Origin: Pseudochrobactrum sp. sp1633
GTDB lineage: Bacteria; Pseudomonadota; Alphaproteobacteria; Rhizobiales; Rhizobiaceae
DNA length: 64,000 bases
NCBI RefSeq assembly: GCF_030376605.1
Contig: NZ_JARRAE010000006.1
Span: 1 to 64,000 of the forward strand
Direction of reading: 5' to 3'
In this document: positions 51,903 to 54,524 of the stretch, in pieces
Numbering within the stretch: the first letter of the stretch is position 1
Layout: each line of letters opens with the position of its first letter
Position numbers and translations under genes: made by a program
Notes under the pieces: model-generated
The model's input: the letters and a program-made list of their open reading frames with translations, nothing else
What the model was told of the DNA's origin: nothing
Databases searched by the model: none

Positions 51903-54524
51903 ATGTCAGACTTTCCAGACGATATTCCCTTCTTCGGGGAGCCGGATGTACCGGCCACACCTAAACCGCAATCAGGTTCAAAGGCCAATTCGCAAGGCGG
52001 AATCGCCGCGCGGGCTATGCAGGCGCGCAACCAGCAGCGCCCAGAGCCTGACTATCTGCAGGGGCTTAATCCGGAGCAGCGGCAGGCGGTTGAAGCGACT
52101 GAAGGGCCGGTTCTTGTTCTGGCCGGTGCCGGCACCGGAAAAACCCGCGTTCTGACCACGCGTATTGCCCATATTATTCAGCAGGGCTTGGCGTTCCCGA
52201 GCCAGATTCTCGCAGTGACCTTTACCAATAAAGCGGCGCGCGAGATGAAAGAGCGTATCGGCCATCTGGTTGGCGGTGCGGTTGAAGGCATGCCGTGGCT
52301 CGGTACATTCCACTCCATCGGGGTGAAGCTGCTGCGCCGCCATGCGGAGCTGGCAGGATTACGCTCTGACTTTACTATTCTTGATACGGATGATGTGATC
52401 CGCCTGCTCAAACAGCTTATTCAGGCTGAAGGGCTGGATGACAAACGCTGGACGCCGCGCTCTTTCTCAATGATGATTGATGGCTGGAAGAATAAAGGCT
52501 ACGGCCCTTCCGATATTTCCGAGGGTGACGCACGCTCATTTGCCAATGGCAAAGGACGCGAACTTTATCAGGCATATCAGGAACGGTTGAAAACGCTGAA
52601 TGCCTGCGATTTCGGTGATCTGCTGCTGCATCCGATCCGGATTTTCCGTAAACATCCGGATATCCTGCGCGAGTATCACGCGAAATTCCGTTATATTCTG
52701 GTGGATGAGTATCAGGATACCAACACCGCGCAATATATGTGGCTGAGATTGCTTGCGCAAAGATCAAGTAGCAACGCCTCCTCTTCTAATCTATCAAATA
52801 GCACTTCCAACGCGACCGACTGGTCGTCGGCTGACTTTTCAGCCGCCCCTGCGGAGCGCAGCCGCGATAGCGGCGACAGCGTGAGCAAAAAAAACTCAAC
52901 ACAGCAGATTAACATCTGCTGTGTTGGCGATGATGATCAGTCGATCTATGGCTGGCGCGGGGCGGAAGTTGATAATATTTTGCGCTTTGACAAGGATTTT
53001 CCGGGTGCGACCATCATTCGACTTGAGCGCAATTACCGCTCCACACCGCATATTCTGGGCGCGGCATCACACCTGATTGCCCATAATGAAGGGCGCTTTG
53101 GTAAAACACTGCTGGCACAGGCAGCGGCTGATGATGACCAAAAAGTGCATGTTCATGCCTCGTGGGATTCTGAAGAAGAAGCGCGCGCCGTCGGTGAAGA
53201 GATTGAACAGGCGCAGCGTCAGGGGCATTTGCTCAATAATATCGCCATTCTGGTGCGAGCTTCGTTCCAGATGCGTGAGTTTGAAGACCGCTTTGTTACA
53301 CTTGGCCTGAACTATCGTGTTATCGGCGGCCCCCGTTTCTATGAACGGCAGGAAATCCGTGATGCGATGGCCTATTTCCGCGTTGTCGCGCAGCCTGCCG
53401 ATGATCTGGCGTTTGAACGTATCGTCAATACACCGAAACGCGGCCTCGGCGAAGCCAGCCTGCGTCTGGTGCATGATTATGCGCGTGCAAAAAATATGCC
53501 TATGCTGCTCGCGGCAGAAGACCTGATTGCAACGGAAGAGCTGAAACCCAAGGCCCGTTCTGCACTGCGCGAAGTGATCGAAAATTTCCGGCGCTGGCAA
53601 GGATTACTCGACAATAAATCCCACACGGAACTGGCCGAAATGATTCTTGATGAATCCGGTTATACAGCGATGTGGCAGAATGACCGCTCGGCTGAAGCGC
53701 CGGGACGTCTGGAAAACCTGAAAGAGCTCATCCGGTCTATGGAAGATTATGAAAGCCTTCGCGGCTTTCTGGAGCATGTCGCTCTGGTCATGGATACGGA
53801 AAAGAATGAAGGCATGGATGCCGTCAATATTATGACGCTGCATTCCGCCAAAGGTCTTGAATTTCAAACAGTCTTCTTACCCGGTTGGGAAGAAGGCCTG
53901 TTTCCGCATCAGCGGGCGCTGGATGAAGGCGGCCGCTCAGGTCTGGAAGAAGAACGCCGCCTTGCTTATGTCGGCGTGACGCGTGCCAAGAAAAACCTGC
54001 ATATCTGGTTTGTGTCCAACCGCCGTATTCACGGCATGTGGCAAACCACTATTCCGTCACGTTTTCTGGAAGAACTGCCGGAAGAGCATGTGGATATTGC
54101 AGAATCCGACAGCTCCTATGGCGGCGGTTACGGCCAGTCACGCTTTGATAATGTTGGGCGCGGCGATCCGTTTGCCAATTCCTATGCCACACCGGGCTGG
54201 CAGCGCGCGCAACAGAACCGCTCTGATGCCACGCGTAACAATTGGGGCTCACGCTCCGGTGCCAATGTCGAGCGTATCGGTTATGGCGAAACAGATTCCG
54301 GCTTCGGTGCCGGTCGCGGTTCAGTCAAAGGCAAAGTGATTGACGGCGAGTTGGTGGCAAAATCCGTTTCCTCAACACCGTCAGACTTTAAGGTCGGCGA
54401 CCGCGTTTTCCATATGAAATTCGGCAACGGCAATGTCGCCTCAATTGACGGCAATAAGCTGACGATTGATTTTGACCATGCCGGACAAAAGCGTGTCATC
54501 GACAGCTTCGTAAAACGGGTATAA
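51903..54524 (+). CDS. uvrD: UvrD/PcrA-type DNA helicase with an inserted loop
   Basis: 873 residues from ATG at 51903. Superfamily 1A motifs in order: GLNPEQRQAVEATEGPVLVLAGAGTGKTRVL (Q motif and Walker A), AVTFTNKAAREMKERI (Ia), ILVDEYQDTN (II), CCVGDDDQSIYGWRGA (III), IIRLERNYRS (IV), DAVNIMTLHSAKGLEFQTVFLPGWEEGLFPH (V) and RRLAYVGVTRAKK (VI). The C-terminal tail ends in a Tudor-like domain (KVGDRVFHMKFGNGNVASID). Between motifs II and III, residues 287-335 form a Ser/Asn-rich insertion encoded by palindromic DNA. It acts in nucleotide-excision and mismatch repair. Confidence 0.95.
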   Translation: MSDFPDDIPFFGEPDVPATPKPQSGSKANSQGGIAARAMQARNQQRPEPDYLQGLNPEQRQAVEATEGPVLVLAGAGTGKTRVLTTRIAHIIQQGLAFPSQILAVTFTNKAAREMKERIGHLVGGAVEGMPWLGTFHSIGVKLLRRHAELAGLRSDFTILDTDDVIRLLKQLIQAEGLDDKRWTPRSFSMMIDGWKNKGYGPSDISEGDARSFANGKGRELYQAYQERLKTLNACDFGDLLLHPIRIFRKHPDILREYHAKFRYILVDEYQDTNTAQYMWLRLLAQRSSSNASSSNLSNSTSNATDWSSADFSAAPAERSRDSGDSVSKKNSTQQINICCVGDDDQSIYGWRGAEVDNILRFDKDFPGATIIRLERNYRSTPHILGAASHLIAHNEGRFGKTLLAQAAADDDQKVHVHASWDSEEEARAVGEEIEQAQRQGHLLNNIAILVRASFQMREFEDRFVTLGLNYRVIGGPRFYERQEIRDAMAYFRVVAQPADDLAFERIVNTPKRGLGEASLRLVHDYARAKNMPMLLAAEDLIATEELKPKARSALREVIENFRRWQGLLDNKSHTELAEMILDESGYTAMWQNDRSAEAPGRLENLKELIRSMEDYESLRGFLEHVALVMDTEKNEGMDAVNIMTLHSAKGLEFQTVFLPGWEEGLFPHQRALDEGGRSGLEEERRLAYVGVTRAKKNLHIWFVSNRRIHGMWQTTIPSRFLEELPEEHVDIAESDSSYGGGYGQSRFDNVGRGDPFANSYATPGWQRAQQNRSDATRNNWGSRSGANVERIGYGETDSGFGAGRGSVKGKVIDGELVAKSVSSTPSDFKVGDRVFHMKFGNGNVASIDGNKLTIDFDHAGQKRVIDSFVKRV
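52761..52927. repeat. Palindrome-rich insertion within uvrD
   Basis: In about 115 bases there are four hairpins: CGACC-gact-GGTCG (52814-52827), GGCTGA-cttt-TCAGCC (52830-52845), GCCGC-gata-GCGGC (52862-52875), and a perfect 13-base stem CAACACAGCAGAT/ATCTGCTGTGTTG (52898-52927) whose minus strand is followed by a run of T. It stays in frame, adding residues 287-335. Confidence 0.75.

Follow-up and report, generated by a model that had tools for sequence, protein, structure and literature searches.

Palindromic repeats that lie in frame within bacterial genes have been described before. The classical case is that of the Rickettsia palindromic elements (RPEs), translated palindromic repeats of ~95 to 150 bp found in frame in unrelated genes (PMC10969869, PMC2267715 and PMC3733652). 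Repetitive extragenic palindromic sequences (REPs) of the GTAG and CGTC superfamilies, single stems of 5 to 13 bp that carry GTAG or CGTC tags and are often paired, were reported by Di Nocera et al. in 2013 to lie in frame in UvrABCD, tRNA synthetases and error-prone polymerases; the same paper notes a bias toward repair genes, speculates on mutators, records the absence of CGTC REPs from Brucellaceae and other groups, and places copies within one functional category at different sites, with the exception of recB in two Xanthomonas (PMC3733652). In Alphaproteobacteria, the intervening sequences (IVSs) of 23S helix 9 are palindromic inserts near the 5' end of the 23S that are processed by RNase III (PMC2743711). 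Here we describe an insert in the uvrD gene of Pseudochrobactrum sp. sp1633, located in the first 64,000 nucleotides of contig NZ_JARRAE010000006.1 (this whole stretch is the window), and the dispersed repeat of which it holds a copy.

The core of the insert is a member of a repeat family that is dispersed in related genomes and lies in frame in several genes. We consider it probable that this core represents one copy of a repeat, presumably non-autonomous, whose multi-helix fold is conserved, and that the copy is tolerated in a surface loop of UvrD. An initial annotation, made from the sequence, had proposed an in-frame palindromic element comparable to RPEs at a tolerant place in the protein, and this proposal was borne out, since the loops of relatives are short or wholly different and the core matches covariance models of the dispersed repeat. 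The features under discussion are listed below; G000 denotes the genome of the window, other G numbers the genomes of relatives, and L numbers the loci taken from relatives.

51903 to 54524, plus strand: uvrD, the host gene (helicase II/PcrA type), with Pfam UvrD-helicase and UvrD_C domains and sequence matches in the PDB
52761 to 52913, plus strand: variable loop, residues 287 to 337, between helicase motifs II and III, placed by PDB alignment, the loops of relatives and a structure model
52761 to 52812, plus strand: Ser/Asn-rich, low-complexity part of the loop, the end of which covers the place of hairpin H1, lost here
52797 to 52895, plus strand: copy of the dispersed ~97-nt structured repeat, matched by covariance models R1 and R2
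52813 to 52826, plus strand: hairpin H2 (CGACC-GACT-GGTCG), which covaries across genera
52828 to 52845, plus strand: hairpin H3 (CGGCTGA-CTTT-TCAGCCG), whose own arms match better than swapped arms in 43 loops
52850 to 52887, plus strand: helix H0 (TGC at 52850-52852 with GCA at 52885-52887), around the internal loop and H4
52853 to 52855 and 52881 to 52884, plus strand: internal loop inside H0, GGA on the first side and GTGA on the second
52856 to 52857 with 52879 to 52880, plus strand: helix H4, inside H0
52861 to 52874, plus strand: hairpin H5 (GCCGC-GATA-GCGGC), seen in the fold and in an alignment that was fitted to H5
52887 to 52894, plus strand: 3' end of the repeat, A rich and in this copy a run of eight A (eight T when read on the minus strand)
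52897 to 52926: perfect 13-bp hairpin H6, separate from the repeat, with the conserved codons for INICCVG as its right arm and, read on the minus strand, a terminator-like form

Alignment of the window UvrD to chain 3lfu_A, which we take to be E. coli UvrD, paired residue 286 with 238 and residue 338 with 243. The insert between motifs II and III, first counted as 49 codons, is therefore real and slightly longer, comprising 51 residues (287 to 337) versus 4 in 3lfu_A; positions 52761 to 52910 correspond to residues 287 to 336. In an AlphaFold model of the window UvrD, of modest overall quality (pTM 0.36), residues 289 to 334 had pLDDT values below 50, about 26 for most, and lacked secondary structure; the preceding helix ends at 284 and the following strand begins at 338. 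The loop is thus predicted by the model to be disordered. Among the matches listed, where nearer records may be absent, UvrD identity was 81% for a Rhizobiales isolate (best segment) and 77% for Phyllobacterium.

In order, the repeat consists of H1, H2 and H3, an enclosing helix that holds the conserved internal loop (GGA/GTGA), a capped helix and, at its 3' end, an A-rich stretch; the window copy is missing H1. Model R1 was derived from 17 loops and used to align 72 copies, 68 of them distinct (alignment A4), from which R2 was built; locus L228 stood in an earlier alignment and was excluded from A1. The window copy, itself among the sequences used to build both models, scored 75.7 bits with R1 (E of 3.2e-15, 52799-52895) and 78.7 bits with R2 (E of 1e-14), and was the sole R2 match in the 64 kb at an E of at most 1. 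None of 200 dinucleotide shuffles folded as well as the sense strand of the insert (z of -4.61), and 2 of 200 folded as well as the antisense strand (z of -2.60). The four tight hairpins noticed initially are all present, at 52813-52826, 52828-52845, 52861-52874 and, as the 13-bp stem, 52897-52909/52914-52926. They had been taken for one element; the first three do belong to the dispersed repeat, and the last lies outside it, because the R2 match ends at 52895.

The fold of the repeat is conserved by covariation. The loops of 43 uvrD genes align as a chain of hairpins in which the stems differ and the pairing is kept. When scored on a plain MAFFT alignment of these loops, six pairs of H2 together with the two inner pairs of H1 gave a covariation of 0.512, compared with 0.162 (sd 0.022) for shuffled alignments, none of 500 being as high, and at most 0.093 when the pairs were slid. 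One H2 pair was formed in all 43 loops, as GC in 19, CG in 15, AU in 7, and UA and UG in 1 each. For H1 (39 loops), H2 and H3 (43 loops each), the arm's own partner beat swapped partners, with none of 5,000 permutations reaching the observed value in each case, and H3 had a run of at least five in 26 of the 43. The helices H0 and H4 were not part of R1; scored on A4, they gave 0.203 versus 0.089 for shuffles (0 of 500 as high) and at most 0.076 when slid. In the A4 copies they enclose a conserved internal loop in which GGA faces GTGA, as read from the 68 copies, 9 of which were not anchorable and some of which had visibly wrong anchors. The full structure scored 0.445 versus 0.121; since the alignment behind this score had itself been fitted to most of the helices, the independent tests of the fold are the H1/H2 covariation, the arm swaps, and H0/H4.

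We then turn to the dispersal of the family. Matches to R1 at an E of at most 0.01 were found in 25 of 29 chosen genomes of the window's family, with 18 in G063 (the highest number), 16 in G013, 8 in G134, 7 in G141 and 1 in G000. Beyond the family, R2 matched 86 of 297 genomes of the order at an E of at most 1e-4, 9 in the window's family and 77 in others, and the positive genomes span 31 families by our count of the listing. These genome counts are floors, because the filters were strict and 13 candidates were scored per genome. All rows of A4 come from the window's family, and the matches in other families are therefore independent of the model. Among 26 R2 copies, 23 had a loop of the form G[GC]A / G[TC]GA with at least three H0 and at least two H4 pairs, as did 20 of the 21 copies from families other than the window's, and H0 appeared in the variants CGC/GCG, GTC/GAC, ATC/GAT, CCC/GGG and CAC/GTG. 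This test left out 4 of 30 loci, namely L376 (the window) and L390, L393 and L404, in which the match lies elsewhere in the locus. Dinucleotide shuffles passed it at a mean of 0.05 of 26 (maximum 1, 40 sets), and neighboring 125-nt stretches in 2 of 153 cases. In 275 kb around uvrD of 34 relatives, R2 had five matches, all at the uvrD loop; among 100 family stretches fetched by place, 25 matched at an E of at most 1e-4, 10 of these being among the copies from which R2 was built.

A search of 20 genomes with a 15-mer pattern had given another impression, with six exact matches, all at uvrD, and 31 one-mismatch matches, including two afterward recognized as UvrB copies, versus 26 one-mismatch matches with the reversed control pattern. 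The reading that the element is not dispersed was overturned by the structure-aware model, and the family is visible only to such a model because the stems are rewritten between copies. The expectation of further copies in the organism's own genome was not upheld: BLAST of the window sequence in G000 returned only short matches with E of at least 0.5, plus a hairpin matching itself, and R1 and R2, with 143 and 13 candidates scored per genome among the more than 1,100 candidate places of G000, gave no second copy either. The initial annotation had reasoned that the same residues conserved across the order, together with no other copies of the DNA in the genome, would refute its reading. Neither outcome was obtained as such; the element is widely shared and turns over, and it is dispersed elsewhere and single in G000.

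Copies of the repeat lie in frame in several coding sequences besides uvrD. In-frame copies were found in UvrB of 11 genomes (G013, G016, G017, G031, G080, G116, G129, G141, G154, where it is partial, G174 and G281), at either an N-terminal or a C-terminal place; Pfam domains were checked in G281, G031 and G013, and the UvrB of the remaining genomes was recognized by motif. Further in-frame copies lie in an isoleucyl-tRNA synthetase (IleRS)-like protein of G063 (a class I tRNA synthetase by Pfam, the isoleucyl name being ours) and in a protein of G038 with a 25-bit match to IMS_C, a domain of Y-family polymerases. All 14 coding copies that could be phased had the sense orientation and encoded V-S or A-S at the anchor; 17 had been given, of which G154 had no anchor, G167 had no long frame (short locus), and the wrong anchor was chosen in G038. 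Among 43 mostly non-coding copies (the anchorable ones of 53 given), the four other frames were often open (25 to 37 of 43), and a fifth, TGA-reading frame was open in 2. The coding phase is therefore not forced by stop codons alone.

Other copies sit beside or inside stable RNA genes. The congeners G004 and G005 have copies in the 23S-5S spacer on the strand opposite to the rRNA (L355 2062-2167 and L356 2045-2144), and in G033, from another genus, copies occur both in the 16S-23S spacer and within the 5' part of the 23S. Within ~20 nt of the 3' end of 6S RNA, on the opposite strand, copies were found in L360 2240-2519 (G020) and L413 1538-1801 (G260), and G013 has copies at the 3' end of two tRNAs. 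Some copies form head-to-tail arrays with ~100-nt spacing. Several side observations were made at these loci. The stems of the two 23S-5S spacer copies are very different and the fold is the same. In G013, L125 1506-1829 and L126 1512-1833 contain tandem copies spaced by ~115 nt that start from the ends of the tRNA-Ala and tRNA-Met genes, and each unit seems, by eye, to repeat a piece of the tRNA 3' end. In L412 1809-2336 (G047), L405 1604-2170 (G260) and L414 41-322 (G465), three to five structured units are clustered on the same strand, those of L412 and L414 being head to tail.

The loop itself turns over among close relatives, as the alignment of their UvrD proteins suggested by the initial annotation made clear. 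In the seven genomes of the genus, every loop differs from the others; one form occurs in G000, G002, G005 and G006, a second in G003 and G004, and G001 has a remnant only, which represents a deletion and not an empty site because it still holds the end of the insert. Outside the genus, 99 loops were parsed from the 100 family stretches (listed search rows beyond those already in the set), of which 39 had 12 residues or fewer and 47 had at least 25; in one of the loop comparisons, four loci yielded no loop. The cores of G000 and G005 share 99% identity across 84 nt, compared with 87.9% overall and 69.1% at third positions for the remainder of uvrD, and G004 is slightly closer to G000 over the remaining gene (89.7%), yet its loop is of the other form. 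Judged from these sequences, both replacement of the loop by recombination and constraint on the core would fit this pattern, which does not separate them.

Other repeats have also entered this loop. Peptide strings resembling translated REP sequences, of our own choosing, were present in 20 of the 99 family loops. The uvrD insert of G036 is a dispersed REP pair with 45 BLAST matches in its own genome, counting both strands and palindrome halves, and none in five other genomes; of 12 stretches with such copies, 1 has the copy in frame in glyS and the others look intergenic from the flanking frames. That different dispersed repeats occur in the UvrD loop indicates that it is a repeated landing place. 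An identification of the window copy as a REP proper was rejected, the G036 uvrD REP query having no match in G000. The glyS copy (L134, G036:C65:149000-151100; Pfam tRNA_synt_2f) is a REP pair of the same family as the G036 uvrD insert. Separately, a second recurrent peptide (PSVAGQ...PRTD) was observed in the UvrD/UvrB inserts of relatives (L018, L043, L120, L254 and L286, with its first half in L121), and it is probably another translated repeat family.

Hairpin H6 lies beyond the end of the repeat. Its perfect 13-bp stem (52897-52909/52914-52926, 4-nt loop) is followed on the minus strand by a T run, given by eight A at 52887-52894, two bases beyond the stem, and its right arm consists of the conserved codons for I-C-C-V, both as first described. 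In 14 of 92 loops, picked by the peptide Q-[IV]-N-[ILV]-C-[CA] and not by pairing, the arms matched each other beyond chance (own-run sum of 93 versus 42.9 permuted, 0 of 20,000; 136 pairs versus 122.9, P of 0.00045), and by eye the sequence ahead of the stem was A rich in the majority of the 14, though not in every one. Across the full set of 37 long loops, own versus swapped arms did not differ significantly (P of 0.12), with a stem of at least 8 in 8 of the 37. A terminator scan over 3 kb showed no enrichment (4 found versus 3.6 expected). H6 most likely arose by correction of a quasi-palindrome, in which template switching would have copied the constrained codon arm into the free arm.

We propose that, in an ancestor, the repeat entered the UvrD surface loop between motifs II and III in sense, in the reading phase that gives V-S at the 3' end of the repeat. 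Its translation would then have added to the helicase a hydrophilic and probably disordered stretch that is tolerated there, its presence in UvrD being neutral or nearly so, and the loop may since have been refreshed by recombination or re-insertion. Spread of the family may have proceeded by copying through folded RNA or single-stranded DNA. Several observations weigh against this interpretation. The 14 phased coding copies share one orientation and phase, which purely random insertion would not predict; some N-terminal UvrB copies may precede the true start codon; G001 shows a deletion instead of a clean empty site; and, as G000 holds no second copy, mobility is deduced from relatives. One H2 pair (columns 36-49) fails to form in 25 of the 43 loops, the permutation tests take no account of relatedness, and the model E-values are rough, the controls for R2 being shuffled stretches and neighbors rather than shuffled whole genomes.

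These points have to be weighed together with the other explanations of the locus. The single sense phase, the compensatory changes seen from genus to genus at the orthologous site in uvrD, and a core far better conserved between two congeners than third positions could all be accounted for if the fold were kept in uvrD and uvrB mRNA as a functional cis element, for instance for translation pausing or control of repair-gene mRNA decay. We regard this as rather improbable, since the congeners G003 and G004 have the other form and G001 has lost most of it, 39 of the 99 family loops have at most 12 residues, and the same fold occurs at non-coding places. A similarly low probability attaches to H6 and its T tract being a selected intrinsic terminator that would halt antisense transcription through uvrD, as its sequence might suggest; the perfect stem with its 4-nt loop and minus-strand run of eight T, and the matching arms in the loops chosen by peptide motif, favor it, but the comparison over the 37 long loops does not, several relatives are without the stem or without the A tract, and templated correction yields the same pattern without selection. 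That the loop is merely fast-evolving disordered coding sequence, with hairpins that come from GC-rich low complexity, would agree with its high variability and predicted disorder. Yet this is highly improbable in view of the covariation controls, the shuffled and neighboring-sequence controls, and the restriction of R2 matches to one in the 64 kb and to the uvrD loops in the 275 kb, and copies at non-coding places, in rRNA spacers and next to tRNA and 6S genes, contradict it.

A bolder extension is that the family represents a structured RNA element, widespread and uncatalogued, that would multiply in the form of its folded transcript and so be a bacterial counterpart of short interspersed elements (SINEs); the UvrD, UvrB, IleRS and IMS_C copies would then be RNA parasites that are translated, or else RNA elements co-opted as signals in repair genes. 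Its SINE-like traits are the tendency to an A-rich 3' end, the head-to-tail arrays at ~100 nt, the sites beside or inside stable RNA genes, and the one coding phase; we hold this extension to be unlikely overall. We give about the same weight to the family having already been described under another name (Bru-RS, RIME or an RPE), a comparison that we made by description. Bru-RS repeats are palindromic and 103 to 105 bp long and RIMEs are dispersed repeats of rhizobia, and Rickettsia Rpe-4 and Rpe-7 measure 95 and 99 bp (PMC2267715). Against this, the REPs of PMC3733652 are single short hairpins, and this five-helix fold was not found described in the open literature searched.

The element had no match in Rfam 15 at gathering scores, and a permissive scan of 52600-53100 returned chance-level matches only, the best overlap being mir-1260b at 16 bits versus a gathering score of 81. 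Neither the architecture of the repeat nor the repeated use of one UvrD loop was found in the open papers searched. The kind of element is already known, because in-frame REPs in UvrABCD genes and RPEs have been published. If our interpretation is correct, a large bacterial order carries a dispersed repeat of ~100 nt that Rfam lacks, whose fold is tightly conserved and which has been built into DNA-repair proteins again and again. Translated repeats would then account for some of the insertions annotated in UvrD and UvrB, and the preference of palindromic repeats for repair genes would become testable in free-living, tractable bacteria.

The window repeat resembles RPEs in being dispersed, palindromic, in frame in functional genes, and missing from orthologues, but it differs in having several tight hairpins and a GGA/GTGA loop and in belonging to another alphaproteobacterial order, a distinction drawn by description. 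As with the 23S IVSs, one copy of the family lies in the 5' part of a 23S gene (that of G033); IVSs are defined by site, whereas the family described here is defined by fold and is dispersed. Like REPs, it consists of dispersed palindromes found in frame in repair genes. However, its unit of ~97 nt with five covarying helices is not the single short hairpin of GTAG and CGTC REPs, as judged by fold and not by tags, and in relatives of the window one UvrD loop is hit repeatedly, whereas REPs lie mostly at differing sites.

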